Assembly: GCF_000754095.2 (NCBI RefSeq)
Contig: NZ_JQSG02000001.1
Span: 1-64,000 of the forward strand
Length of the DNA: 64,000 bases
Reading direction: 5' to 3'
From: Acidihalobacter prosperus
GTDB taxonomy: Bacteria; Pseudomonadota; Gammaproteobacteria; DSM-5130; Acidihalobacteraceae
Position numbers and translations under genes: made by a program. The notes beneath the pieces are model-generated. The model saw nothing but the letters and a program-made list of their open reading frames with translations, searched no databases and had not been told where the DNA came from. This document shows, in pieces, positions 1-32,083 of this stretch (its first letter is position 1; each line of letters begins with the position of its first letter).

Positions 1-2
1 TC

Positions 3-92
3 GGGTATCCGGAAGATCGTGTTGATTTGAGATGGAGTTGAGATGACGCATCTTGGCGCCTAAACCGGAATATTGTGTGTATGTGTGTCGAC
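3..92 (+). repeat. Left outer inverted repeat of the island
   Basis: Ninety bases matching the complement of 12279-12368 except at two positions (around 46 and at 88). The first 24 bases are the ISL3-type tip. The remaining 66 bases are not shared with the internal copy at 6490, so this is a second copy of the cargo-side end rather than of the transposase-side end. Confidence 0.9.
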
Positions 93-178
93 ACTGCCAC
101 ACCCGGCATGAATAGGGTTTGATGCTTGATTGTGCGGATTTCAGCTACACGATTTATAACAATTCACCCAGAGTATGA

Positions 179-583
179 TCAGGCGTGTGAGTGCTCTGTA
201 TCAGAAAGTTGACTTAAAATAGGGCACGAGTCGCCTCCATCCGAGCAACACAAATGGCTAAGGCGTGTGAGTTCATCTTTGAATGCAGACAGACTGGAGA
301 TCTTGTGCTCTATTTCTGCAAGCTTTGCCTGAGTCAGCCCCAGGACCTGCCGACGCGCTTCATTGGGTGCTGAGCGCAACCGCAACAGAACACGGATGTC
401 ATCCAGGCTAAAGCCGGCACTTTTGGCTCGACGGATAAACATCAGCTGTTCGATATCGTGACCATCGTAGTCACGTCGCCCAGCGGCATCGCGCCCGACG
501 GCATCCAGCAAGCCTATTTTGTCGTAGTAACGCAGTGTCTCGGGACTGAATCCCGAGCGCCTTGATGCCTCTCCAATTTTCAT
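179..583 (-). CDS. CueR-like MerR-family metal regulator
   Basis: A 134-residue MerR-family activator. The N-terminal winged helix begins MKIGEASRRSGFSPETLRYY, followed by a dimerisation helix (about 75-110) and a C-terminal metal loop with C112, C113 and C120 (CCSDGGDSC). E. coli CueR, a Cu(I) sensor, uses C112 and C120 with the same spacing and also continues CPI. The helix cysteine near residue 77-79 that marks zinc/lead sensors is absent, so a monovalent metal is favoured; the extra C113 is unusual. The start is set by AAGGAGG five bases upstream; an in-frame ATG six codons earlier lies on top of this site. It is divergent from the chaperone-ATPase cassette it probably controls. Confidence 0.88.
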   Translation of the reverse strand: MKIGEASRRSGFSPETLRYYDKIGLLDAVGRDAAGRRDYDGHDIEQLMFIRRAKSAGFSLDDIRVLLRLRSAPNEARRQVLGLTQAKLAEIEHKISSLSAFKDELTRLSHLCCSDGGDSCPILSQLSDTEHSHA

Positions 584-731
584 CCATACCTCCTTCGGCA
601 AACCGGGGCGACTCAGCTATCACCTCTAGAATCGCCAATGACGCGAGATAACCCGTGAGGTCTTCACCAGTGCGAGATCTAGCGTTTGTCAGCTGAGTGT
701 GTCTGGCAGCGAAATATCATGCCACAAAGCC

Positions 732-762
732 TTGACTTGGAGTTAACTCCAAGCGTTATAAG
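732..762 (+). promoter_or_regulatory. MerR-type promoter with 19-bp spacer and perfect dyad
   Basis: TTGACT (732-737) and TATAAG (757-762) are separated by 19 bases, the overlong spacer typical of MerR-regulated promoters. The perfect palindrome CTTGGAGTTAACTCCAAG (736-753) fills the spacer, as in CueR/ZntR operators. It points at the chaperone gene starting 34 bases downstream. Confidence 0.88.
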
Positions 763-795
763 TCACCAGGAGACTCGGGTAAAGAGGTATTCGAC

Positions 796-1041
796 ATGCA
801 GTCGTTCGAACTACAAATCGGTGGCATGCACTGTCATGGCTGTGCGCTGAGGCTTGAACAGGTGTTAAAGAGGGTTTCCGGCGTCAGCGCGGTTAAGGTT
901 TCCTATCAGGATGGTCAAGCTCGATTGATCATCGATCCCGATGCGACATCGCCGGAGAAGCTGGTGGCATTGGTGACCGACGCTGGATTTACGGCAACGA
1001 CGACATCGGAGGGGCGGCGTCATGACGAACATCGCACTTGA
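796..1041 (+). CDS. Small cytosolic heavy-metal-associated (HMA) chaperone, CopZ-like
   Basis: An 81-residue ferredoxin-like HMA domain with the metal motif GMHCHGC (C13, C16). There is no signal peptide, so it should act in the cytosol like CopZ rather than as periplasmic MerP. Its probable job is to hand Cu(I) or a similar soft metal to the ATPase encoded next. The two genes overlap by 20 bases, implying co-translation. It is the first gene after the MerR-type promoter. Metal specificity is inferred from the family and the regulator. Confidence 0.88.
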
Positions 1042-3493
1042 TCCTTCATCAGACTGGCACCCTTGGCGAGACGAGCCCACGCAAACACCGCCACTGCGTC
1101 GCGTCAGCGCCCATATCGGCGGTCTGCACTGCTCGCTTTGCACGGGAACGATCGAGCAATCACTTGGCAAACTGCCCGGTGTAAAGAAAGTCGCCGTGAG
1201 CCTGACCCACGAACAGGCCTTGGTCGAATACGATCCAGCGCTGACGGATCCGGCAGTCTTGATGGGAACGCTTGGCGATATCGGCTACGAACTACAGGAT
1301 CCGAGGCGGGTCGAGCCGTTCGAAGTGCAGGAACGCCGTCTCGCCAATGAAGGTGCCCGATTCCTGCTGGCGCTTTCCGCCAGCCTGATCGCCGTGGCTT
1401 TGATGGCGCCGTCACAGGGCTGGCAACTCGTCCTTTCCGGGCTCGTCTATGCCACCCTGCTTCTTTTCTCATGGACGCTGCTCAAGCCGCGCGGATGGAT
1501 ACGCGCGCTCTCCGGGACGGCCACACTAGCGCTTCTCGGCTTGCTCATCTACGCATTGAAGTTGGATGGCCTATTACAGACCTGGGCGGCACCGTTGACC
1601 GCGGCCTTGGCGCTAGGCGTGTTTTTAGGCCCTGGCGGCAATTTTTTGAAGATTGCCTGGCAGTCCCTGCGGCGAGGCATTCTCAATCAGCATGTATTGG
1701 TCGAAATCGGCGCTGTAGCGGGCATCATCGGCGGGGCCCTCGGTTTTGTTCTACGGCTGCCCCATTACCCTACGGCGGCTTTTTTCGGGGTCTCGGTGAT
1801 GGTGCTGACCTATCATCGCTTTTCCGAGTGGCTTTCATTGATCGTGAAGACGCGCAGCTCCCAAGCGGTGCGAAAACTGCTCGATTTGACGCCGCGTACG
1901 GCGAGACGAGTGGGAAAAAATGGACACGAAGAAACCGTGCCGGCGGAGACGCTTGCGATCGGTGATCGCATTCGTGTGCGCCCCGGTGAAAGGATCGGTG
2001 CCGATGGCCGGGTGCTGGAGGGGCATTCTTCGGTGGATGAATCGCTGTTGACCGGCGAGCCCCTTCCTGTTGAGAAAACGACCGGGACAAGTGTCGTCGG
2101 TGGTGCCATCAACGGGCCAGGCATGCTGCTCGTCGAAGTAAGCGCTGTAGGTGACGACAGTTTCCTGGCTCAAGTAGTCCGCAGCGTCGAGGAATCGCGC
2201 GCACTAAAGCCCGGTCTGCTGCATCTGGTGGACCGTACCCTACGCATTTACACGCCGCTTGTTCTGACCCTTGCCTTGCTGGCCCTGCTAGGGTGGCTGC
2301 TGGCAACCTGGCTGATGAGTGGCACACCGGATGTGGAGCGAGCGGTCTTCGCTGCGCTTTCCGTACTGGTCATGGGTTATCCCTGTGCGGTCGGGATTTC
2401 GGCACCTTTGTCGATCGTACGCGGGGCTGCCGATGCAGCAGAGGCTGGCGTGCTGATGCGTACGGGCGAGTCTTTCCAAGCGTTCCGCCAGACAACGCTC
2501 GTAGTGTTCGACAAGACCGGCACACTTACCGTCGGGCGTCCGCAGGTAGCCAAGCTCATGCCAGCCTCAGGAGTGGACGAGATGCATATGCTGAGCCTGG
2601 CGGCATCGGTCGAGATGGGCTCGGAGCATCCGCTTGGGCATGCGATCATAAATGAGGCACTGGAGCGCGGGGTCGCTTTGGGCGAGGCGTCGGATTTCAA
2701 GGCGATAGCCGGCTTGGGCATAACAGCCAAGCTCGGTGATACCCAGGTCCAGATTGGTAATGCCGAATGGTTGCGAACGCAACAGATCGCCATTCCTGAT
2801 GATAAGGCCATCAAGAGCGCGCAAGCGCTGGGGCATACGGCCGTTGGCGTGGCGGCTGCGGGTCTTTTCCAAGGCTGGATCCTGCTGGGTGATGCCTTGC
2901 GCGAAGATGCCCGCGAGACGATCCAGGCACTGAATCGTCACGGCATCCGCGCTTTGATGTTGACGGGGGATCACCCGCATACAGCGGAAGCGGTCGCTAA
3001 GCAATTGGGCATAGAAGAAGTCTATGGGCGTGTCCTGCCTCAGGAGAAGGCCGAGCGCATCCGGCAATTTCAGGCGTCCGGTGCCCATGTCGCCATGGTA
3101 GGCGACGGCATCAATGATGCGCCTGCGCTGATGCAAGCCGACACGGGGGTTGCCATGGGGTCCGGCACGGATATCGCGATCGAATCGGCCGATATCGTCG
3201 TTCTCAACAACCGGCTCTCATCGATTCTGATCGCCTGGCAGATCAGTCGTCGGAGTTATGCGCGTATGGTCCGTAATGTTTTGCTGGCATTCGCATTCAA
3301 TGGCCTTGGCATACCTGCGGCGGCGACAGGACTCGTGAACCCCGTGTGGGCCATGACGGCAATGGCAGTGAGTGTTACCGCGATTTTCGTCCACTCCTTA
3401 TGGGGCAAACCTGCCATATTTTTTTCAGCCGTCGGCAGTGTCGGCACGAAATCTGCTGTGCTATCGCAAGATGCCATGAGTACTCCAAGATGA
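1022..3493 (+). CDS. P1B-type heavy-metal ATPase with YPC transmembrane motif
   Basis: An 823-residue P1B ATPase for metal export. It has an N-terminal HMA domain with GLHCSLC (C37, C40), the actuator loop [16 protein letters not shown], the phosphorylation motif DKTGTLT (D497), SEHPLGHA in the nucleotide domain and GDGINDAP (from G694). The transmembrane metal motif, normally CPC in copper pumps, reads YPC (Y453-P454-C455) in [11 protein letters not shown]. The last helices carry FNGLGIP and MAVSV, in place of the YN/MSS residues of CopA. It therefore belongs to none of the classical CPC, CPH, SPC or TPC groups. It overlaps its chaperone by 20 bases and the next gene by four (ATGA). Copper or silver is the likeliest substrate from context. 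Confidence 0.92.
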
Positions 3494-4356
3494 AAACAAT
3501 TCGCTTTCGTCTTGATAACGATGCGGTGCGTATCGGCGTCACATTGATTGCACTGGCCCTGCTGTTCTTTGCGGGGGAATGGGTTTATCACACGGTTGGT
3601 TGGCTATTGTTTAAAGCCCAGGGAACGCCGGTCGTGCCCGCTCCGCTGATCCTGGCCATTGGGGTTCTTGGTGGTGCCGCCTCATTTTTTTCGCCTTGTA
3701 GTCTCGTGATTACACCCTCCTTCCTCATGTATTTCGTGGGCAATAGGGCTTCAATGTCTGTTGACATGAAACAACATGACCGCAGCCTGTTCATGGCGTC
3801 ATTACTGATCGCATTAGGTATCATCGGTTTTTACGGCGTCGCCGCCGTGCTGGTCGGCATGATTGGCCCCGTAATCTATCGGTTCCTGATCTACTTGATT
3901 CCTGTAGTCGGCATACTTTTCGCAATCTTGGGCTTTGCGCTGTTGATCGGAGGTGCCGCCGCATTGAGTGGTGCAGCGCGGTTTTTACCGGGACGGCGCT
4001 ACTATGATCGGTTGCTGGCGGGTGCGGCGCAGGGACGGCGGCGTGATCTTCTGGGTTTTGGCGTGGCCTACGGAGCGGCCGCACACACGTGCACCTTGCC
4101 CGTTTTTTTGGGGGTCATCATGCTACCGCTCGCCGCAGGTGTCTACTGGCTTGCCGCCTTGGCCGTGCTGCTCTATGGAACTGCCATGGCAGGCTTGATG
4201 CTCCTCATGCTTGCACTGGGTCAGCCCGCCGTATTGGCCGTGCGACGCCATATCGGTCTCTATTTGCAGCCGGCTACCGGCATTCTGTTTCTATTGACCA
4301 GTGCGTACTTATTTTATTATTTCCTGTTGAATTTCGGGCTTATATCGGGAATCTAA
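3490..4356 (+). CDS. CcdA/DsbD-like thiol-redox membrane protein
   Basis: A 288-residue integral membrane protein with about eight helices, resembling the CcdA/DsbD transmembrane module that passes electrons across the inner membrane. Two conserved-looking cysteines are visible: C70 in FFSPCSL and C201 in AAHTCTLP, the positions of the CcdA pair. The start ATG overlaps the ATPase stop (ATGA). With the secreted cupredoxin-like protein after it, the likely role is keeping periplasmic metal-binding cysteines reduced; this is inference. No periplasmic thioredoxin domain is present. Confidence 0.75.
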
Positions 4357-4370
4357 GGGGGGGAGAAATC

Positions 4371-4760
4371 ATGCATCAATCAGTGCGCATCCGTCTCGCG
4401 CCGGCCGCCGCATCACTACTGGTGGTATTTGCTTTGCCAGCGATAGCGGCAGCATCCGCCCCATCTGGTACGACGCCGGTTTTTAAGTTGATAGAAGGTA
4501 AAGCCTGGTCGTCCTATCCCTACTCGCCTCCGGTTCTCCATATTCCGGCAGGCAAGACCGTCGCACTCGAACTCACCGACAACATCGGCGGCTGCGGTCT
4601 CGTGACCGTATTCCCGCATCTAGGTCCTCAGGGGAAAACGGTGTCCATCCGCGTGCCGGTCGGAGACACGAAAAGAATCTTGATACACGCTCCCAAGCCA
4701 GGGAAGTACGTTTATCACTGTTCTGAAAACATGTGGTATGGAGAGATCGTGGCCGAATGA
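4371..4760 (+). CDS. Secreted cupredoxin-like protein with Cys/Cys/Met site
   Basis: A 129-residue protein with a signal peptide (hydrophobic run about 12-28, cleavage near AAASA) and a small beta-sandwich like cupredoxins. Candidate ligands are C75 (NIGGCGLV), H83, H116, C117 and M121 (YHCSENMW). The first His of a blue-copper site is replaced by Cys and the CxxH spacing is missing, so a Cu(I)/Ag(I)-binding chaperone is more likely than an electron carrier. A purine-rich site (GGGGGGAGAAATC) precedes the ATG. Last gene of the cassette, 14 bases after the CcdA-like gene. Confidence 0.75.
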   Translation: MHQSVRIRLAPAAASLLVVFALPAIAAASAPSGTTPVFKLIEGKAWSSYPYSPPVLHIPAGKTVALELTDNIGGCGLVTVFPHLGPQGKTVSIRVPVGDTKRILIHAPKPGKYVYHCSENMWYGEIVAE

Positions 4761-5130
4761 TTCGATGTGACTGACGAATCCATCAGCGACTGCCTCGTAG
4801 CCTAGCGAGGATGAACGTTATCGTGCCCGCGACCAGACACTGGAAGCTTTTGTAAGATTGGCGGCCTGGTGCACGCAGCAGCCACCGGGGCATGCTCGCA
4901 CGGGATGGTCTAGCCCGAATGTTTCATAAACCCGCCAATTCTGCCCAGCATCTCACTTGCATGTCTGGCTTTTCAGCCTGCTGAGTCAGATCGGTACCGC
5001 AACGTTGCCCTGGAAAGTGTACGCGCTCGCCGGTCACGGAGCCTGCAGCCGGAATTTCAGCGTCGAGGCGTGCCGAGGCCCGCGGGGCTTGCCCGGATGG
5101 ATGCGTTTCGCGGGTTACACACGGCGGTGT
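4761..5130. other. Non-coding stretch between the copper cassette and an IS remnant
   Basis: No gene is recognisable here. A short imperfect hairpin, CCTCG/CGAGG near 4793-4811, could end the cassette transcript but lacks a T-run. The right part probably contains the decayed terminal region of the IS1380-family element. Confidence 0.4.
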
Positions 5131-5149
5131 GTTTCAGGGTATGGCTGGA

Positions 5150-6395
5150 GGTCGGGCGAGATAAAGCAATTCGGTCACCCGGTGCAACAAGTCTTTTCAC
5201 CGGGCAGCTGCTCGGCAGGTCCAACTTGATCCGATCCTTGTACTGCACGACGCGCACCGCCCGCTTGAACAGCTTCTGGATAAGGGTCATGGACTGCGCT
5301 TTCACCAGTTCAGTGTGGCACAAGGTGTTCTCACGCAGACTGTGGATCAGGGTGTAGGCGCACACAGGCGTAGAACAGGCGCATGTGATGGCCGAAGAAG
5401 GTGTGATTGGACGTTCGATCACTGGCCAGGTCGTTTTTGATGGCCTTGATGAAGTTCTCATCCTGGCCCCGGGCGTAGTATAAATCCCAGTACAGCGTCT
5501 CAGACGTCGGGTTGGTCAGCGACGTCTCGACGAAACGCGGGTTGTCTCCTAAGCCCATCACCTCGGCCTTGAACACCAACCGGTGGGCCTGAGCTCGCCG
5601 TTGCTCATGCAGGGCCCGCGCTTTCGCGAGCAAGGGCTTGGCCGCGGGCACAAGCGCCGGGTTGCCGGCCAGGCCGAAGAGGAAATCCATCTGCGCATCC
5701 TCTTCGCACAGGGCCATCAATTCCGGGTTGGAGAAATGTCCATCCCCGCGCAGGACGATGTGGGTGTCCGGCCAGGCTTGACGCAGCCGGCGCACGACCC
5801 GACCGATGATAGCCGCATTCTCACGCCCGGTGGGGCGCTTGCCGGGACGCAGCACCGCCGTGATGAGTGCGCCGGAGAGCCCCTCGAAGAGAAACAGCGG
5901 CCGGTAGCAGTGGCTGCCATAATAGGGGTTGTAGAAGGCCAGTTCCTGTTGCCTATGGGTGCGGTCGTCGGAATGGTCCATGTCCAGGACAATCACCGAA
6001 GGCGGGTCGGCGTAGCGAGCAATGAAGGCCTCAACCAGGGTCTTGGCCAGACGATAGATGTCCTTGCGGGTGAGCCCATTCTCCAGGCGCGAGAACGTGG
6101 GCCCGGAGGCCAGGTCGTTGTCGGTATCCAGCGGCGCGCGCCCGAGTGCGAGCTTGAAGGCCGGGTCTTGGCGCAGATCGTTGGCGTCGTTGCCATCGGC
6201 ATAGCCGCAGGCGGTCTGGAAAATGCGCTGGCGCAGTAGATCGGCCAGGCAGTCGATCAATCCAGTTTGCCGATCGACACCGTGCAGCAGGAGTGCGCCG
6301 AAATCACTCGATACAGCACCTCCCTCGAAGTCGGCACGGACGGTGAAACCGGCCAGGGTGGGGAAACAGAGCTGAGTCGGGGCGACATCACTTAT
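5150..6395 (-). pseudogene. Decayed IS1380-family transposase
   Basis: The central reading frame carries IS1380-type sequence (CGYADGNDAND, LASGPTFSRLENG, VIVLDMDHSDDRTH, LRGDGHFSNPELM). Three lesions are visible. An indel near 5355-5362 moves the C-terminus (CAYTLIHSLREN ... VQYKDRIKL ... LPSSCPVK) into another frame. The N-terminal block (FTVRADFEGG) is intact in frame but has ATA (6395) where a start ATG would be expected. About 16 residues seem missing after DRQTGL, judged from remembered relatives. No clear terminal repeats were found. It is dead as it stands. Confidence 0.82.
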
Positions 6396-6489
6396 GGGCG
6401 GTCTCGGTTAGGCTTCGCCCGAAGCGTTATTATCGTAAATTTTTATTATATCAGTTAGTTAAGCGCCCGCCCTTCTATTTATGAAAAAT

Positions 6490-6513
6490 GGGTATCCGGA
6501 AGATCGTGTTGAT
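6490..6513 (+). repeat. Internal ISL3-type terminal repeat (transposase side)
   Basis: The 24 bases starting GGGTATCCGGAAGATCGTGT are identical to 3-26 and to the complement of 12345-12368. The match stops after these 24 bases. It lies seven bases beyond the transposase stop codon, the normal place for an ISL3-family end. Confidence 0.92.
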
Positions 6514-6519
6514 ACGGGT

Positions 6520-7836
6520 CTAGAGATCGCCGTTTTCAATCAAGGATATCAATGTTGATATCTGAGCGCCGTAGTTGGTTTCTCGTTCGATGTCGATAAT
6601 CCTTGAAAAGGTTTTGTACGCGAACATCGAGTCTTCCATCGTTGCTCTTCGCTTGGGATATTTGGGTTTCTTGACTGTATGTACCCCTTCGGTGAAAAGG
6701 ATCTTTGCCCGAAGCGCCTCGAAGCTATAGCCGCGCCCAAGACGATTCATCACCCGAATCAGGTTGTTCAGACTTTCCGTATAGGCGTTGGTGATCGGGT
6801 GATCGAAGTAGTTGAAGATCTCCGTGTGCCAGTTACCGATGGCCGTGAGAATCGGCTTGAAGGCATCTCTCATCTCATCGGATAGACTCCCACACCAGAT
6901 CTCATAAGCACTTTCCGCGTCAGGCCGGTTGTCCATATCCCAGATGCCATAAAAAGCTTCCTTAGCATCGTAGGCCGCCCCCAGCGATGGGTAGTTGACA
7001 GTCCAGCCCGAGAGCTTCAGGTAGTCTTCGTCGGAGATGTCACGGCGGCGTTTGAGCAGCACGAAACGATCGTGCATCAAGCCCCTGCGCTGTCGTGAGG
7101 TAAGTTCCACTCGCAAGTTCTTGCGTACAGTGTCCAGACACTGATTCGCCATCCGCACGACATGAAACTTGTCGATGACGATTCTGGCCTGTGGGAATAC
7201 CGTGTTGACGGCGTCGCGATATGGATTCCACATATCCATTGCGACATACCGCACCTTTTCCTTATCGGGTAGCGTTTGCAGGCGCTTGATCACGGTCGGC
7301 TTGTTGCGGTTAGGCAGCACCTCGACGATGGTTTGATGCTCGATATTCGAGATCACGCAGCGCGGTTTCTTGACGATGTAGATCTCGTCGATGCCCATCC
7401 ATCTCGGCGTCTCGAACCGGACTTCCTTCTCCAACCGGTTGACATAGGCGCGAAAAATGTTGCGGATGCTCTTTTCGTCGAAGCCTACGTCCTCGGCGAT
7501 ACTGGCAAAGGTGCGGCGTAGTGACTCACGCTCGATGTATTGCACCAGTCGTCGCGTCGCTTGCCGGCGATCATGCATCTCGGGCAGCGGTTCCATGAAA
7601 GTCTTGCCGCATTGTTTGCAGCGTAACCGTCTGCGGTCTACCCAAATACCTACCCGCTTGCCGCGCACGGGGGCGTCCATGAAGAGTTGGCGCTTGCGTC
7701 CGAAGCCCACGGTATGAGAAGAACCGCAGTCAAGACAATATTGGCTGGAGCCGTTGCTGGTTGCCTCAATGTGATAATCATGTTCGGATTCTTGAACCGA
7801 GTCCTGCTGTAAATACTTGAGATTCAACAAGTCCAT
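6520..7836 (-). CDS. tnpA: ISL3-family transposase, intact
   Basis: A 438-residue transposase, the usual family length. The N-terminal zinc-ribbon has CLDC and CKQC pairs, followed by a helix-turn-helix region. The DDE catalytic core shows GIDEI, VAMDMW and NAYTESLNN as the likely D, D and E. No frame damage is visible. It reads towards the terminal repeat at 6490. It could act on all three tips in the window. Confidence 0.93.
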   Translation of the reverse strand: MDLLNLKYLQQDSVQESEHDYHIEATSNGSSQYCLDCGSSHTVGFGRKRQLFMDAPVRGKRVGIWVDRRRLRCKQCGKTFMEPLPEMHDRRQATRRLVQYIERESLRRTFASIAEDVGFDEKSIRNIFRAYVNRLEKEVRFETPRWMGIDEIYIVKKPRCVISNIEHQTIVEVLPNRNKPTVIKRLQTLPDKEKVRYVAMDMWNPYRDAVNTVFPQARIVIDKFHVVRMANQCLDTVRKNLRVELTSRQRRGLMHDRFVLLKRRRDISDEDYLKLSGWTVNYPSLGAAYDAKEAFYGIWDMDNRPDAESAYEIWCGSLSDEMRDAFKPILTAIGNWHTEIFNYFDHPITNAYTESLNNLIRVMNRLGRGYSFEALRAKILFTEGVHTVKKPKYPKRRATMEDSMFAYKTFSRIIDIERETNYGAQISTLISLIENGDL

Positions 7837-7914
7837 CTAGAGCATCCCATGCGAGCAGGCATCGTCAGCCGCGGCATGCAGCCACGTGAAGGCTGCCATT
7901 TTCCCCAAACGAGC

Positions 7915-8250
7915 CTAATGTCTGGGTGCCAGCATGATAATGGCCACCCCCATTAGGGCGACGAGGTTGCCGATGACATCCCACAGACCGAGACGTATCC
8001 CTTCGCCCCTCATAGCCAACCGATAGTGACGGCAATGTATCCGCCGCCATACGCGGCGTAGGTACGCCCAGCCGCCGTAGGGTGAAGGGTCAATAACCAA
8101 GCGAAAACAGCGAGCGAGGCTGCCGCTGGCAATAGCAGCCAAGGATCTCGGCCACGGCCGTGTGGCCACGAACAGGACAGAATGCGTAACAAGTTGAGTT
8201 CACTGGCGAGCAACGGCAGGTCGTTTCCAGGTGCGGGCATGAACGTCCCC
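7915..8250 (-). pseudogene. Broken ynfA-like (UPF0060) small membrane protein gene
   Basis: UPF0060 sequence appears in different frames. [19 protein letters not shown] lies in one frame ending at a stop after TIGWL; the C-terminal block (GLWDVIGNLVALMGVAIIM) continues in another frame to 7915. Upstream, the same bases can be read as AEILGCY (family N-terminal motif) or [10 protein letters not shown] (a motif normally about 15 residues later), pointing to a deletion between two short direct repeats. The gene is not translatable as one protein. Confidence 0.75.
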
Positions 8251-8331
8251 TGGCTGCGACCGAATACGCGGAAAACCTTCCTGAGGATTGAACCCGGATG
8301 ATCCATATCGCGTGCCGCGAGAGGCATCGCC

Positions 8332-9513
8332 TCAGGCAGCCGGTTGTGCCGGACTCAGGCCGGGCAGGTGGCGGCGCAGGGGGCGCAGGGCCACAGCCGC
8401 GAGCAGAAAGGCGCAGCCCAGTTTCGCCCAGCCTGGCAGCAACTCAGCACTGGCCTGGATCTGGGCCGTGATATTGATGTTCAGGGCATGCACCAGGGCA
8501 TCGGTCAACAGACCGAATCCAATAGCGCAGGCGCTGATGCCGCCGACGTAGATCAGCACGAAGCGCCAGCCGAATACCTTGCGCAAGGCGCCTACCGTGC
8601 CCAGATTGGTTGCCGGTCCCGCCAGCAGGAATACCAGCACCGCGCCGGGCGAGACCCCTGCCAGTAGCATAGCAGTGGCGATCGGCGTGGATTCGGTCGC
8701 GCAGACGTAGAAAGGCACACCGACCAACAGCATCAGCAGCATCGCCATCCAGCCACTGCCGTAAGCACCCAGTGCAGCCGGCGGCACCAATGTCATGGTT
8801 AAACCCGCCAGCGCGAGGCCGAGCGCCATCCATAGACTGAACTCATCCAGTAGGTCGGTGACCGCATAGCGAATCCCCGCCATGCTGCGCCACCCGAGCG
8901 AACCCGTGTTCGTATTCAAAGCGTGTGCGGTCGATTCGTAGCCGCAGGACGAATCGTTGCAGTCCGCTTGTGCAATCCTCGCCGGCTTGACTTCAGTACT
9001 GCACGCACTCGAACACGTTTGTGATCCGCAGGCGTCGATTCCGACCCGATCTGGGGCAGAACCCGGCACCCGCCTTGCCTCCGGTTCGGCGAGATTGCCC
9101 AGCAGGCCAGTCACGATGGCGCTCAGGATGGCGCTGATCGGACGAACGATGGCCATGAACGGCCCCAACAGCGCGAACGAAATGGCCACCGAGTCCACGC
9201 CTGTCTCCGGGGTGGCGATCAGAAATGACAGGGTCGAGCCTCGCGAAGCCCCGGCACGGCGCAAACCCAGCGCGACCGGTATCACACCGCAAGAACACAG
9301 CGGCAGTGGCGCGCCGATCAGCGCGGCTTTGGTGACCGGCCACAAACCGCGACCGCCCAACCAACGCCCCAGCCGGTCTTGCGGCACCCATGCCTTGATC
9401 AGGCCAGCGCATATCAGCCCGAGCACCACCCAAGGCGCGGCCTCCAGGTACAGCGTCCAAGTGTTCGCGATCCACTGTGCGAGGGTGTGAAGAGTGGTGT
9501 CAATCAGGTTCAT
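8332..9513 (-). CDS. SO_0444-type Cu/Zn efflux permease
   Basis: A 393-residue permease of the ArsP/DUF318-like superfamily with two sets of helices. Signature segments are [20 protein letters not shown] and PETGVDSV in the first half, and [14 protein letters not shown] and LAGPATNLG in the second. The central cytoplasmic loop is cysteine-rich ([19 protein letters not shown]), suited to binding soft metals. The ATG chosen lies 14 bases inside the end of the upstream ArsR gene, so the two are co-translated; a start 12 codons upstream is possible but would lengthen the overlap. Confidence 0.82.
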
Positions 9514-9904
9514 CAGCGGTTTCCACACACATGCCGCGCACCGCCGCATTCAGGGCGGGCAACGGCGACTCGTCATTCCAGCGGTAATAGACCATCTTGC
9601 CCGCGCTGCGCATGCGCAGCCAGCCCTGGCCGCGCAGAATACGCAGTTGCTGTGAAGTCGCCGCTACGCTCAGGCCGAGCAGGTGAGCCAGATCGCAGAC
9701 GCACAACTCCGCCTCGCGTAAAGCGCGCAGGATCATCAAACGCTTGGGATTACCCAGCATTTTGAACAATTCGGCGCTGGCCGCCAGCTGTTCCGCCTCG
9801 GTCGCCAGAGCAGCCTGAACCCGGGTCACGGTGCGCGGATGAAAGCATTCCAGGGCGCAGACGTCCGCTTCGGTTGCAGTAGGGGTAGAGGGTTTATGTT
9901 TCAT
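9500..9904 (-). CDS. ArsR-family metal-responsive repressor
   Basis: A 134-residue ArsR/SmtB winged-helix protein. The alpha-3 motif ELCVCDLAHLLG resembles the Cys site of CadC/ArsR sensors, and the recognition helix is SVAATSQQLRILRGQGW, followed by MVYYRW of the wing. Extra cysteines lie in the N-terminus (VCALEC). The ATG at 9904 is preferred over one 17 codons upstream because a candidate operator lies directly before it. It overlaps and probably controls the permease gene. Confidence 0.87.
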   Translation of the reverse strand: MKHKPSTPTATEADVCALECFHPRTVTRVQAALATEAEQLAASAELFKMLGNPKRLMILRALREAELCVCDLAHLLGLSVAATSQQLRILRGQGWLRMRSAGKMVYYRWNDESPLPALNAAVRGMCVETADEPD

Positions 9905-9907
9905 GTT

Positions 9908-9923
9908 TTCGAATATAATTGAA
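9908..9923 (-). promoter_or_regulatory. Candidate ArsR operator/promoter
   Basis: An A+T-rich imperfect dyad, TTCGAATATAATTGAA, sits three bases before the repressor ATG, with 12 of 16 positions symmetric. Its position and composition fit autoregulation by the ArsR protein. No test beyond symmetry is possible here. Confidence 0.4.
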
Positions 9924-10047
9924 TGAGTCTTGGCACGCAAGCATGAACCGGACACTCAAAGCACCGCACGGCATACAGCCGGCAGCGGCTCGAATGGAAG
10001 GAATCGGGCGCTTGGGGCATCCATGATTGCATGATGGAGTCAACACG

Positions 10048-10530
10048 ATGAAAGCAATCGGCTCCAGGCACTACCTGCCTCTGGACGTATGGCTCATGCC
10101 CCTAGCCTTGTCGCCAGCGGGCTTGGCCGTAGCTGCACCTGCGCCGCGCAATTACTTGAGAGGCGCTCTCGACCCTTATCTGCTCTGCGGATGCATGCGA
10201 ACAACCCGTGGATTGGTATCCCTTGGGGGGGGCGGCGGCGCTGGAAAATGCTCGACGGGAAAACAAACCGATCTGTCTATCCATCGGTTATCTGGCCTGT
10301 TACTGGTGTCATGTGGCCGACCGCGAGTTGTTTTCCGATTCGGCTATCGCCCGCCTGATGAATCGCTGGCTCGTGAATATCTTGGTCAACCGAGAGAAGC
10401 GCCCGGACATCGACCGCGTCTGTCAACTCGCCGCAGTGGTCATGAACGGACAGGGTGGCTGGTCCAGTAACATTTTCCTCGCCTCTAATCTGAAACCGTT
10501 TTCCGCTGCCGTATATTTTCGCCGCATATC
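10048..10530 (+). pseudogene. Broken DUF255 (YyaL-type) thioredoxin-like gene
   Basis: A secreted-type N-terminus with RNYLRGALDPYLL lies in one frame, LRMHANNP in a second, and WYPLGGAAALENARRENKPI, CYWC, REKRPDIDRV and GGWSSNIFLA in a third. Together these reproduce the start of a DUF255 thioredoxin-fold domain with CxxC (CYWC). The homology stops near 10530, about 130 residues in, far short of the 600 or more residues of complete YyaL proteins. It is a frameshifted, truncated remnant between two metal-efflux operons. Confidence 0.72.
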
Positions 10531-10639
10531 AGCGCATTCGGTCAGTCGGATTTCTCCAGGTGCCATGTCGCATCCTTCAACCACGTTCAGATTTACTGAT
10601 AATCCTGAGGTATCTCTTAAGGTTAACCAATCATGGACC

Positions 10640-11656
10640 TCATCCTGCCTCAGGCAGCGGCCATTTGGTGTGACGAATCCCCTGCATGGGAATCCGGTAT
10701 TCGGTCTGGAAATGGTCCACCTGGAGTGTCACATGATCGATATCAAAATGCTCAGCAAGCAGTTCACTCAGGCGTCGACGCACTGCATGGCACTCTCCGG
10801 AGCAAGGCTTATCGCCGGATATGAGGACGTGGGCGGATAGGGCAGTAAAGCCAGATGTTATCTCCCAGACATGCAGGTCATGCACCTCGAAGACACCAGG
10901 ATCTGCAGCCAGTGTGTGACCGATTACATCCGGGTCCACTCCCTTGGGGGCGGCTTCGAGAAAGACGCGCCCCGATTCTCTGAGCAGACTTACCCCCGCA
11001 CGCAGCATCAAGGTCGCCACCACTAAGGCAGCGAGAGCATCGAAACGGTAGAAATGTGTCCAGTAGATCAACGCGCCGGCAATCGCGGTGACAATGAAGG
11101 CGTACAGATCGGTGAGGATGTGCTGAAAGCTGCCTTCGACGTTGAGACTTTCCCGATTGGCCTTGCTCATTGACCACGTTGCCAACAGGTTAACGACAAT
11201 ACCCACCAGGGCGATCCAGGTCACGAGAAGTCCATCGACCGCAGGTGGCCAGATCAGGCGTCGCACCGCCTCAATCAGGAACCAACCAGCCAATGCTACC
11301 AATGTTAGGCCGTTGATCTGGGCACTGAAGATTTCAGAGCGTTTGAAGCCGAAGGTAAATCGCCCTCCTGCAGGCCGCTGTGCCAAACGCATTACAGTCA
11401 GCGACATCGCGATTGCGCCCGCATCGGTGAGCATGTGCCCTGCATCAGATATAAGTGCCAGCGAGGAGGCCATCAGACCCGCGACGACTTCGACTGCCAT
11501 AAAGGCCAGCAGCAACGCTAGAGCGATCGTCAGATAGCGCTTGTCAGCATCCGGACCGATCGAATGGGTATGGTGGTCATGCGCATGCCCATGGTTATGG
11601 CGGTTAGAGTCATGTCCGTTCGCATCGTGTTCATGAGAATGGGTATGGGTATGCAT
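10640..11656 (-). CDS. czcD: Cation diffusion facilitator (CzcD-like Zn/Cd/Co exporter)
   Basis: A 338-residue CDF antiporter. The His-rich N-terminus (HTHTHSHEHD, HNHGHAHDHH) is followed by six predicted helices with the metal-site pairs DAGHMLTD (helix 2) and HILTDL (helix 5), and a cytoplasmic domain ending VTLQVDH. The second pair has T where zinc CDFs usually have G/S. The ATG at 11656 is preferred to a GTG four codons earlier because of the spacing to GGAGAGG. It lies 89 bases after the ArsR gene in the same direction. Confidence 0.92.
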   Translation of the reverse strand: MHTHTHSHEHDANGHDSNRHNHGHAHDHHTHSIGPDADKRYLTIALALLLAFMAVEVVAGLMASSLALISDAGHMLTDAGAIAMSLTVMRLAQRPAGGRFTFGFKRSEIFSAQINGLTLVALAGWFLIEAVRRLIWPPAVDGLLVTWIALVGIVVNLLATWSMSKANRESLNVEGSFQHILTDLYAFIVTAIAGALIYWTHFYRFDALAALVVATLMLRAGVSLLRESGRVFLEAAPKGVDPDVIGHTLAADPGVFEVHDLHVWEITSGFTALSAHVLISGDKPCSGECHAVRRRLSELLAEHFDIDHVTLQVDHFQTEYRIPMQGIRHTKWPLPEAG

Positions 11657-11745
11657 CACGTTCGGCACCTCTCCGAGTAGCTCGCCCAGGGCGAGGCCGC
11701 GTGCTTGGGCACCGCACCTGGCATGAGTTGCGTTGATTTCTATTA

Positions 11746-12057
11746 TTACCGTTCGTCTCCAGTTTCTTCAGCGACGTGGATCGTCATATCGCTAAGTACC
11801 CGACGCACGTGCTCATCGTTGACTGTGTAGAACACCTGTTTGCCACGTCGCTCGGCACGCATGAGGCGCGCCGCCTTCAGCAGACGCAAGTGGTGACTCA
11901 CCAGAGAGGGGGTCAGGCTAAAACGATCGGCCAGATCCTGGACGCAGACCGCTTCCTCAAGGCAAGCACAAATCAGTCGCAGCCGATTGACGTCGCCCAA
12001 CAGGTGGAACATGCCGGCTAATTCTTCGGCTTGCTCAAAAGTCGGTTCCATACTCAT
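11746..12057 (-). CDS. CzrA/SmtB-like zinc-sensing ArsR repressor
   Basis: A 103-residue ArsR-family repressor with recognition helix SLTPSLVSHHLRLLKAARL and wing QVFYTVND. The C-terminal alpha-5 helix shows D, H (+2), H (+13) and E (+16), in DEH...DMTIHVAEE. This matches the D84/H86/H97/H100 zinc site of CzrA with Glu in the last position. The alpha-3 element AVCVQDLAD retains one Cys. It precedes czcD in the same direction and is the probable regulator of that exporter. Confidence 0.9.
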   Translation of the reverse strand: MSMEPTFEQAEELAGMFHLLGDVNRLRLICACLEEAVCVQDLADRFSLTPSLVSHHLRLLKAARLMRAERRGKQVFYTVNDEHVRRVLSDMTIHVAEETGDER

Positions 12058-12089
12058 CGAATAGTTCCACGTCGAATCAAAGTAACGAT

Positions 12090-12103
12090 TGAATAGTTGT
12101 TCA
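12090..12103 (-). promoter_or_regulatory. Candidate CzrA/SmtB-type operator
   Basis: TGAA-N6-TTCA (TGAATAGTTGTTCA) in an A+T-rich stretch 33 bases before the repressor start. SmtB/CzrA operators are built on TGAA/TTCA half-sites, so repression of arsR-czcD from here is plausible. Confidence 0.55.
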
Positions 12104-12278
12104 TATATTAATGATGAAGCTCTATGATATCAACCGCCCCGACGGGAAACCCGACGCCGGGCATCTCTACATGGATGCTGGGGGAGCTGGTCTGGCCCTT
12201 CCGTGTACTGGCTTGTCACAAATCAGAAGGCGCTGCGGACTTACTGGTGAAACGGGAAGTTCGGTTGCGTCTTGGATA

Positions 12279-12368
12279 GTCGCCACACATACACACAATA
12301 TTCCGGTTTAGGCGCCAAGATGCGCCATCTCAACTCCATCTCAAATCAACACGATCTTCCGGATACCC
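12279..12368 (-). repeat. Right outer inverted repeat of the island
   Basis: Complement of 3-92 with two mismatches. The outer 24 bases (12345-12368) are the ISL3-type tip. Read leftwards, it supplies the last eight codons and the stop codon to the interrupted GGDEF/EAL gene. Confidence 0.92.
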
Positions 12369-14587
12369 GTTTTTTCCAGGTCGGCCAGGTAGGCCGTTTC
12401 GGTCACTTCGAGTTTGAGGGCATGGCGCGACTCGGGATGGGCGTCCAGAGCCTCGTCGAGATCCTGCAGGAACTCCGGGGCGAGCAGGTGGCGGGCGCCG
12501 ATGTTGATCGAGATGGTGGTGTCGAAACCGTCGTTGCGCCAGCTCGTCAGCTGGCTGAGCGCCTGTTCGAGCACGTATCGGCCGAGCGAACGAATCAGGC
12601 GCCCATCCGCCTCGACCAGCCCGATGAACTCGTTGGCCGGGCGATAGCCGCCATCGGCCAAGGGCCAGCGGATCAGTGCTTCGAATCCGGTCACGCGACA
12701 GGCGGCGACGTCCATCTTCGGCTGGTAATGCAGGACCAGATGGCAAGCGCGGATGCTTTCCAGGAACTCGCGCTGTACGCGATGCCGGCTGAGCATCTGT
12801 TCTTCGAGCTGCGGGCGAAAGAAGCGGTAGCTACTGCTTTCGTCGAGCTTGGCCTCGTGCAACGCCAGGTCGGCTCGACGCAGCAGCGATTCCGGGTGGC
12901 GGCCGTCGCCGGGACATTGCGCGAGGCCAATATGCGCCTGGATGTTGACGATTTCACCCTCGGGCAGGTTCAGCGGCGCGCCGAGAGCGGTCAGCAGTCG
13001 ACTCAGGGTGGCATGCCAGTGGGGATCGCCGGCGCGCGGGTAGAGGATGAGCCCGAATTCATCGCCACTGAGTCGCGCGACCAGATCGTCGCCTTGGCGG
13101 AAGGCTTCCAGGCGGCGTGCGGCTTCGTCGACCACCCGGTCGCCGCTGTTGTGCCCCAGGCGATCGTTGATGGCCTTCAGTCCCATCAGATCGAGTATGC
13201 CGATCGCGAAGGGCGACGATTGACGGTGTACCAGTGCCTTGGCCCTCAGGTCGGTCAGGCGGCCCATGAACAGGGTTCGGTTGGGCAGATGGGTCATCGG
13301 GTCGTAGAGGGCGTGACGCTGCAGTTCCTGTTCATTGTCGTAGTCCTCGAGTGACAGGCCGATGCGCTCCGCCAGTTCGCCGAAAAGCTTCAGCTTGTCC
13401 TCGGAACAAACCTGTGGTCCGCGCGAAAAGACCGCGACGATCGCTTCGACGCGGTTTTGCAGCATGATGGGGGCCAGGGCCAGCGAATTGATCTCGTGTT
13501 TTTGCAGCAGCAGCCACCAGGCGCCCAGCGAAGGCTCCTTGAAGATGTCGGGCAGACACTGCACTTCGGCCGATAAAAGCAGTCTTTGGAAAATGTTCGA
13601 TTCGGCGCTTGCATCCATGCGAATGCCGGCGATGGCCTGTTCGATGCGGGCACGCTCCTCGACGGGTTCTGGGCCGATCATTTCGCTGCGCAGTCGCAGG
13701 CGTTCCCAGTCGACCCGGGCGATCCAGATGAAATCGGGCCGCAGCGATTGCAGGATGATTTCGCCGGCGCGTCTGAACAGGGCGGACGGCGTCGGGCGTT
13801 CGGCGATGAAGCCGTTGAGCGCGCTGAGCGCGGCGTAGGTGTCGCGCAGGCGTTCGGCTTCGGTGCGTGCCTCGATCAGGCTGGTTTCTCGCCGGTGCAC
13901 CTTGTCGCGCATGCGGTTGAAACTGACGGCCAGTTGGCCGATTTCATCGTGCGAGGCGATGGGCAGCGTGATGGCGTAGTCGCCTTTGCTCAGTCGACGG
14001 GTGGCTTCGACCAGCAGTCGTATGGGCTTGGCGACCCAGCTGTCCTGTATGAGCAGGCCAACGAACAGCATGACCAGCATGAGGCTGACGAGTATGGCCT
14101 CCGCCTGCAGGATGGTTGCCTGCTCGACGCGCGCGAGTTCGTGGTTGTCGACCGAAACCTGGAGATAGCCGATGCGCTTGTCGTCGGTGCCGGCGATCGG
14201 CAGGGTCAGATGAACGCTCTGGCGGTAGGCCAGTGCCTCGCCGACCCGGTGTATGTAATCGTGATGGCTGTCCTCGGTGCTTCGCAGACCGAACAGGGGG
14301 TAGAGCCTGATGCCGTCGGTGTTGCGCAGGGTCAACTCGATCCAGTGCGGGTGGCGCCGGTGAACCTGGCGCAGGGTTTCATCGATCAGGGCCAGATTGC
14401 CGTTTGCCAGCGGAGGTGCAATGGCGGCGGCGACCACCTGCATCTGCTTGAGTGTGTCGGCCTCGATCTGCGCGGTGGCCTTCTCGTCGACATCGGGCAG
14501 CCAGAAGTAATACAGGCCACCGACCGCGAGCAGCAGCGTGGCGCTGATTGCAATCAGGGGCAACTGGAGTTTGAGGCGGATGTTCAC
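12341..14587 (-). pseudogene. GGDEF/EAL signalling protein, EAL domain cut by the island
   Basis: A membrane c-di-GMP protein: an N-terminal helix (about 10-30), a periplasmic sensor part, a second helix (about 165-185), HAMP (DSWVAKPIRLLVEATRRL), a GAF-like domain, then GGDEF with the altered signature SGDEF and an EAL domain with FEALIRW. The EAL sequence stops after LEVTETAYLADLEKT; the last eight residues and the stop come from the island repeat at 12345-12368. The second half of EAL (DDFGTG and the catalytic residues after it) is missing and should lie left of base 1. SGDEF suggests a weak or inactive cyclase. Its GTG start overlaps the PhnD-like gene by four bases. Confidence 0.9.
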
Positions 14588-24737: not shown

Positions 24738-24814
24738 CGGGGTATAGCGCAGCCTGGTAGCGCGCCTGCTTTGGGAGCAGGATGTCGGGGGTTCAAATCC
24801 CTCTACCCCGACCA
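24738..24814 (+). tRNA. tRNA-Pro(TGG)
   Basis: A 77-base cloverleaf with encoded CCA. The acceptor CGGGGTA pairs with TACCCCG, the anticodon loop is TTTGGGA, and the T-arm reads GGTTCAAATCC. First of four tRNAs in one run. Confidence 0.97.
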
Positions 24815-24853
24815 TTTACAGGCCGCGCTGTTGCAAGAGGTAGGGATTACGTT

Positions 24854-24930
24854 GCGCCCGTAGCTCAGCTGGATAGAGCATTCGCCTTCTAAGCGAACGG
24901 TCGCAGGTTCGAGTCCTGCCGGGCGCGCCA
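24854..24930 (+). tRNA. tRNA-Arg(TCT)
   Basis: A 77-base cloverleaf with encoded CCA. The acceptor GCGCCCG pairs with CGGGCGC, and TCT lies in the loop of CGCCTTCTAAGCG. Reads AGA/AGG-type codons. Confidence 0.97.
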
Positions 24931-24970
24931 TTAGCAGTCGTCCGGCGATGCCCGGATTCGAAAGATTTAT

Positions 24971-25047
24971 GGTGGGCGTAGCTCAGTTGGTAGAGCCCTG
25001 GATTGTGATTCCAGTCGTCGTGGGTTCGAGTCCCATCGTCCACCCCA
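24971..25047 (+). tRNA. tRNA-His(GTG)
   Basis: A 77-base tRNA including the extra 5' G (position -1) needed for charging. The anticodon GTG lies in GGATTGTGATTCC. CCA is encoded. Confidence 0.97.
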
Positions 25048-25083
25048 GCTATGTCGCCAGGCACGCGGCGGCGATCGGTTAAT

Positions 25084-25159
<76 letters not shown>

Positions 25160-25164
25160 TTGTG

Positions 25165-25203
25165 AACGACGAAGCCCGCCCGAGCGCGGGCTTCGTCGTT
25201 TTT
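25165..25203 (+). terminator. Rho-independent terminator after the tRNA run
   Basis: AACGACGAAGCCCGC (25165-25179) pairs perfectly with GCGGGCTTCGTCGTT (25186-25200) around a six-base loop, followed by TTT. It ends the Pro-Arg-His-Lys transcript six bases after tRNA-Lys. Confidence 0.93.
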
Positions 25204-25259
25204 GCACGTGCATTCCCGGTATGTCGTGCCGGCGTGTTAAGATTGAACGTTTAGGTGGC

Positions 25260-25346
<87 letters not shown>

Positions 25347-31914: not shown

Positions 31915-31990
31915 GGGTGCTTAGCTCAGCTGGTAGAGCGTCGCCCTTACAAGGCGAATGTCGGGGGTTCGACTCCCTCAGCACCCACCA
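31915..31990 (+). tRNA. tRNA-Val(TAC)
   Basis: A 76-base cloverleaf starting 12 bases after hupB. The acceptor GGGTGCT pairs with AGCACCC, the anticodon loop is CTTACAA, and CCA is encoded. Possibly co-transcribed with hupB. Confidence 0.97.
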
Positions 31991-32006
31991 GGGTCGTAGA
32001 GTTTTT

Positions 32007-32083
32007 GGAGTGGTAGTTCAGCTGGTTAGAATACCGGCCTGTCACGCCGGGGGTCGCGGGTTCGAGTCCCGTCCACTCCGCCA
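32007..32083 (+). tRNA. tRNA-Asp(GTC)
   Basis: A 77-base cloverleaf. The acceptor GGAGTGG pairs with CCACTCC, the anticodon loop is CTGTCAC, and CCA is encoded. Sixteen bases after tRNA-Val. Confidence 0.97.

Follow-up and report, generated by a model that had tools for sequence, protein, structure and literature searches.

A transposon-borne operon of Acidihalobacter prosperus, most likely for metal export with a CupA-like cupredoxin and a membrane reductant of its own

What task could a metal pump, a relative of the thiol-redox protein CcdA and a cupredoxin have in common? The question is raised by a cassette of five genes at the start of a 64,000-nucleotide stretch of the Acidihalobacter prosperus genome (contig NZ_JQSG02000001.1, positions 1 to 64,000; hereafter the window, meaning the whole stretch that was analysed). 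The cassette consists of a MerR-family regulator, an HMA-domain chaperone, a P1B-type ATPase with a YPC motif, a 288-amino-acid membrane protein that we call gene 4, and a cupredoxin, and it lies inside a 12.37-kb ISL3-type transposon (window 3-12368). The original prediction, made from the letters of the DNA, had taken all five genes, with overlapping starts, for one unit resembling none of the standard cop, cus or mer operons. We found all five open reading frames (ORFs) of 179-4760 intact, with a 20-bp overlap between the HMA and ATPase genes, an ATGA overlap between ATPase and gene 4, and a cupredoxin start 15 bases past the end of gene 4. The regulator is divergent, however, so that the transcription unit comprises four genes. 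The combination indeed matches no standard cop, cus or mer operon, and none of merT, merP and merA was found among the transposon genes scanned with Pfam and NCBIfam.

Gene 4, the cupredoxin and their partner genes

The window's gene 4 protein had no Pfam (DsbD_TM) or NCBIfam match, and a few of its relatives match DsbD_2 weakly. Profile comparison was more informative: aligned with hhalign, the gene 4 family matched the CcdAs of other YPC loci at 98% (2.6e-13) and a CcdA at 96%, with homology spanning both half-repeats. Each half-repeat holds one membrane cysteine, Cys70 (FSPC) and Cys201 (HTC), and both are invariant in 19 sequences. Profile homology thus makes gene 4 a distant relative of CcdA, which agrees with the CcdA-like identity first proposed for it. 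Hydropathy and lysine/arginine counts predict seven helices with the N-terminus inside and the C-terminus outside, a topology that would place a fused cupredoxin outside the cell membrane.

For the cupredoxin, an AlphaFold 2 (AF2) model reached a mean predicted local distance difference test (pLDDT) score of 80, with values of 86 or more across residues 51-129. The predicted fold is of the CupA type: the top PDB match was pneumococcal CupA with Cu(I) (Foldseek 3e-7; VIA Z 12.0, root-mean-square deviation 2.0 A, 88 residues), followed by the CopA metal domain 4f2f (Z 11.7), with B. anthracis Cupredoxin_1 and Brucella FtrB tying within 1 Z of the best matches. A profile of the cupredoxin likewise found CupA, at E 2e-4. 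In the profile alignment C75, C117 and M121 pair with CupA C74, C111 and M115, while CupA M113 has no equivalent. Across 18 sequences Cys75, His116 and Cys117 never vary, and Met121 is close to invariant. Blue copper proteins have a His between the corresponding Cys and Met; none lies between Cys117 and Met121 here, and the site is therefore likely to hold Cu(I) rather than to transfer electrons. The sequence at the N-terminus resembles a Sec signal peptide; the protein looks exported, in line with the periplasmic Cys/Met cupredoxin that had been envisaged.

The YPC motif first noticed in the pump is real, and the protein is a P1B pump. It has the P1B architecture (HMA, E1-E2 ATPase, DKTGT, HP), and a motif alignment shows GYPC in transmembrane helix 6 (TM6), FN in TM7 and AMxxSV in TM8 throughout its clade, whereas CPC pumps carry CPC, YN and MxxSS, respectively; an NQHVL is also conserved in the clade ahead of an earlier helix. 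Judged by motif, the protein is a P1B relative and not a P1B-1 member. A GYPC DNA pattern matched seven times in 398 genomes (three copies of the window's own gene, one new YPC locus in genome G733 and three sites without a matching ATPase), so YPC ATPases are rare among these genomes. The HMA chaperone has a CxxC but scores 47 against 85 bits for the best NCBIfam CopZ model, below all CopZ cut-offs.

The regulator (179-586) is nearest CueR by family score, as originally suggested, with 105 bits against the NCBIfam CueR model, below the equivalog cut-off of 147.4. Its C-terminal loop, LCCSDGGDSCPIL, bears a Cys pair (LCCSDGGDSC), and a table of position 77 lists Arg, not Cys, for this protein. 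MerR-type sensors of Hg and of Zn/Cd/Pb use a Cys at position 77-82. The regulator thus has both marks of the monovalent sensor class, a C-terminal Cys pair and no Cys77. Between it and the operon, TTGACT and TATAAG stand 19 bp apart and overlie a perfect palindrome of 18 bp, CTTGGAGTTAACTCCAAG (736-753), an arrangement typical of MerR-type promoters. A locus in the same-genus genome G001 (L024) has a near-identical site; the layout is shared by loci L046 and L030, where a spacer of equal length holds TGGAGTTTACTCCA and TGGAGTGCGCTCCA, respectively.

Conservation of the cassette and redox genes at other YPC loci

When about 85,000 species genomes were scanned with a gene 4 alignment, 28 gene 4 loci came to light in other genomes, or about 20 independent ones once near-identical pairs are considered. 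The association is therefore not confined to the window, as a neighbourhood search proposed with the original prediction was meant to check: a P-type ATPase lies in the same locus in 26 of the 28, and a cupredoxin follows gene 4 in all 23 loci whose contig runs on past it (in L028 and L048 the cupredoxin match is spread over two frames). Two loci, L053 and L054, lack an ATPase, and both get a better score as ordinary CcdA. Among the 26 ATPases, 25 are of the GYPC type and one is a CPC pump; in this Bacillota locus (L049:4249-9123), gene 4 and the cupredoxin adjoin the CPC ATPase.

Hosts of gene 4 include Rhodanobacteraceae, Lysobacterales and Acidiferrobacteraceae (Gammaproteobacteria), Burkholderiaceae, Acidobacteria, Bacillota and one Marsarchaeota archaeon, with the proviso that nearly all loci come from metagenome bins, whose taxonomy can err. 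Many apparently stem from mine drainage or contaminated groundwater, judging by bin names. Gene 4 is rare: among 369 genomes of the class, only 3 gave a match, namely the window's own, G044 and one with an ordinary CcdA. No relatives were found in viral contigs, nor on plasmids at E 1e-5.

Gene 4 and the cupredoxin form a single ORF in 13 loci (11 distinct). Correlating the identity matrices of 18 related loci, without a significance test, gave r=0.93 for gene 4 and cupredoxin, 0.54 for ATPase and gene 4, and 0.40 for ATPase and cupredoxin. Because the pump and the gene 4-cupredoxin pair differ in their nearest relatives in L031, L043 and L049, the pair must have moved as a unit between pumps. 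The cassette's core is the pair of gene 4 and cupredoxin.

CcdA-type genes also accompany YPC pumps where gene 4 does not. One was present within about 6 kb in 12 of 12 bacterial YPC loci without gene 4 that were examined, a set amounting to about ten independent loci given its near-duplicates (Nitrobacter/Afipia; two Paraburkholderia); the Deinococcus match was weak (1e-5). None was found in a small control set of five CPC loci or in three haloarchaeal YPC loci. A small thioredoxin-like gene is likewise often present in YPC loci without gene 4. Loci L009-L012, L015 and L065-L070, from plasmids and one genome, carry YPC ATPases; in place of gene 4 they have a CcdA-type gene, often joined by a small thioredoxin-like one, and several lie by mer genes. 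This theme of YPC ATPase, CcdA-type gene and thioredoxin-like gene seems undescribed. In the open-access literature, with most subscription papers outside our search, we found no description of a CcdA, cupredoxin and copper pump combination, and a YPC P1B ATPase described or tested only as CopAL6 (PMC11082258).

Proposed mechanism, metal and alternatives

We propose, at a probability of about 0.5, that the cassette is a mobile resistance operon for a soft metal, most likely Cu(I), in which export is joined to a periplasmic cupredoxin whose reduced state gene 4 maintains. The CueR-like regulator would respond to a cytosolic monovalent metal by turning the operon on; the HMA protein would hand the metal to the YPC ATPase, which would carry it through the inner membrane. 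On the far side, Cys75 and Cys117 of the CupA-like cupredoxin would hold it as Cu(I), with Met121 near. In the oxidising periplasm this Cys pair could otherwise be lost to a disulfide or spent in reducing Cu(II), and gene 4 may keep it reduced by relaying electrons from cytosolic thioredoxin via Cys70 and Cys201. CupA itself binds Cu(I) via C74/C111 and uses the same two residues to reduce Cu(II); what re-reduces them is not known (PMC5646241). A thiol-redox relay had been part of the original prediction; the gene fusion, the co-variation and the match to CupA, whose Cys pair needs re-reduction, strengthen it short of proof.

Several findings weigh against this proposal. The AF2 model of the gene 4-cupredoxin fusion was poor (mean pLDDT 57.7) and lent no structural support to gene 4. 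The regulator has Arg where CueR has Ser77. In the GYPC clade the first CPC Cys, the TM7 Tyr and the second TM8 Ser are gone, so that Cu(I) selectivity is unreadable from the ATPase motif. The YPC ATPase CopAL6 lowered Cu resistance and raised the Cu content of E. coli (PMC11082258); if CopAL6 belongs to the GYPC clade, the pump may be unable to work when its partners are missing, or may transport the other way. Lastly, merA lies within 8 kb of six gene 4 loci, and many other YPC loci, including some on plasmids, have mer genes as neighbours.

This last point bears on the metal, which is probably copper or another monovalent soft metal. Copper is favoured by the CupA-type site and the regulator without Cys77, by cus-type RND (resistance-nodulation-division) genes near L025/L046, L030 and L042, and by the copper genes that adjoin the Cupriavidus and Thalassobaculum loci. 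The nearness of merA would suit a mercury (or other divalent thiophile) system, in which the YPC clade exports Hg(II) while the Cys pair and its reductase form an outer Hg trap, and MerT/MerP/MerA do adjoin YPC ATPases on Cupriavidus, Nitrobacter, Afipia, Cytobacillus and Haloarcula plasmids. Yet the transposon genes scanned include no mer gene, the window's regulator lacks a Cys at 77-82 and its cupredoxin is CupA-like, and metal genes cluster on islands generally, so that proximity is weak evidence; we consider mercury a serious rival but an unlikely one, slightly less probable than the reductase considered next.

Gene 4 and the cupredoxin could instead be a transmembrane cupric (or other metal) reductase fed by thioredoxin, supplying Cu(I) for storage, for an outward pump such as Cus or for uptake, with the ATPase a separate activity of the same regulon. 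CupA uses the equivalent Cys pair to reduce Cu(II) and depends on a supply of electrons, the two proteins are fused in some loci, the module has been swapped between YPC and CPC pumps, and silA/cusA-like RND genes lie near several gene 4 loci. However, periplasmic Cu(I) production would be harmful unless the ion were captured at once, and the nearly constant adjacency of the pump argues for a joint task, which leaves this reading doubtful. Least probable, and by our estimate improbable indeed, is that there is no joint mechanism, the metal genes having been gathered on a resistance island by transposition and gene 4 serving a general thiol or cytochrome c role. That the cassette shares its transposon with unrelated metal genes and that ATPase and gene 4 co-vary only moderately would fit; the same gene set in distant hosts, the fusion, and the CcdA-type genes that adjoin YPC pumps generally but not CPC controls speak for a common function.

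The export operon that we favour resembles several known systems in part. The Streptococcus pneumoniae cop operon (CopY-CupA-CopA) also joins a P1B pump to a CupA-type cupredoxin, and CupA there passes Cu(I) for export to CopA, which itself has a cupredoxin domain (PMC7558416). The cassette departs from it in a cupredoxin that looks exported, an HMA domain at the N-terminus of the pump, a YPC motif, an added or fused CcdA-like protein and a MerR regulator in place of CopY. With CueR-CopZ-CopA efflux it shares a small divergent unit of MerR regulator, HMA chaperone and P1B pump; it differs in GYPC rather than CPC, altered TM7/TM8, a regulator below the CueR cut-off, and the addition of gene 4 and the cupredoxin. 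The ScsABCD and DsbD/CcdA pathways likewise tie a CcdA/DsbD-type membrane protein to copper tolerance, and ScsC is reported to bind Cu(I) (PMC8900818). ScsC has a thioredoxin fold, whereas the cassette's presumed partner is a cupredoxin, and the cassette includes no Scs protein.

If the proposal is correct, metal export would be coupled to a supply of thiol electrons outside the cell, offering a possible answer to what re-reduces CupA-type copper proteins and a first role for the GYPC pump branch. More tentatively, gene 4 and the cupredoxin might be an undescribed two-part transmembrane machine, often a single polypeptide, that delivers electrons from the cytosol to a CupA-type Cu(I) site in the periplasm, in concert with a so far uncharacterised YPC P1B branch which in bacteria usually accompanies CcdA-type partners. 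Its mobile location makes the module useful for studying the spread of metal tolerance among microbes of metal-rich sites.

The ISL3-type transposon

The transposon has the intact transposase, terminal inverted repeats and 8-bp target duplication of an ISL3-family element at its copy joining C6 to C1.

Features of the cassette and its transposon, in window coordinates
Feature	Coordinates	Strand	Evidence or remark
Left terminal inverted repeat, 91 bp	2..92	+	24-bp ISL3-type end at 3-26
MerR-family regulator	179..586	-	Pfam MerR_1, MerR-DNA-bind; NCBIfam CueR; PDB matches CadR, CueR
MerR-type promoter/operator	732..762	+	Read from sequence
HMA (CopZ-like) cytosolic chaperone, motif MHCHGC	796..1041	+	Pfam HMA 5e-15
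P1B-type ATPase, N-terminal HMA (CSLC)	1022..3493	+	Pfam E1-E2_ATPase, Hydrolase; TIGR01525, TIGR01511 above cut-off
Gene 4, 288-amino-acid membrane protein, 7 predicted helices, remote CcdA relative	3490..4356	+	Profile comparison, alignment, topology
Cupredoxin, signal-peptide-like N-terminus	4371..4760	+	Pfam Cupredoxin_1 just below cut-off; AF2; CupA top match
Transposase remnant, DDE_Tnp_1_4 (IS1380-like)	5331..6260	-	Between cassette and ISL3 transposase
Internal copy of 24-bp transposon end	6490..6513	+	Just downstream of tnpA
ISL3-family transposase, intact	6520..7836	-	Pfam DDE_Tnp_ISL3 1.8e-63
YnfA/UPF0060 protein, partial	8010..8327	-	Pfam
SO_0444-family Cu/Zn efflux permease	8332..9549	-	NCBIfam NF033936, 418 bits vs cut-off 300
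ArsR-family regulator	9500..9955	-	
DUF255 thioredoxin-like domain ORF, probably fragment	10208..10840	+	
CzcD-like cation efflux protein	10640..11668	-	
ArsR/SmtB-family regulator	11746..12057	-	
Right terminal inverted repeat, 91 bp	12279..12369	-	
8-bp target duplication GTTTTTTC	12369-12376		After right terminal inverted repeat

The element of about 12.3 kb recurs in the genome (G000:C6:1098807-end and G000:C7:5150-17515) and occupies two genomic sites, the insertion spanning C6 and the window start and that on C7. The former is flanked by the 8-bp duplication and lies inside a GGDEF/EAL gene (12341-14587 plus the C6 flank). A third copy was considered and rejected: the C6 end and the C1 start are the same copy, since joining their flanks yields the 8-bp duplication and an uninterrupted GGDEF/EAL frame of 1033 amino acids. 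No target duplication was visible at the C7 copy. An extra copy of the 24-bp end, internal to the element at 6490, points to capture of the cassette by a smaller ISL3 element. ISPpu12 is comparable as an ISL3-family element with a czcD-type metal gene and regulator (PMC4133298, PMC4447125); the window's transposon differs in its 12.37-kb length, the copper cassette, the SO_0444 permease, YnfA and the extra internal end. An assignment of 8010-8327 as lspA, by analogy with ISPpu12, was discarded as Pfam gives YnfA.

Within the genus, gene 4 was not found in genome G002, and G001 holds a related copy with 97% identity for ATPase and gene 4 and an identical end. An ISL3-flanked copper cluster has been reported for Acidihalobacter yilgarnensis (PMC7760498). 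Elsewhere in the window, seven tRNA genes form two groups, at 24738-25346 (Pro, Arg, His, Lys, Leu) and 31915-32083 (Val, Asp).

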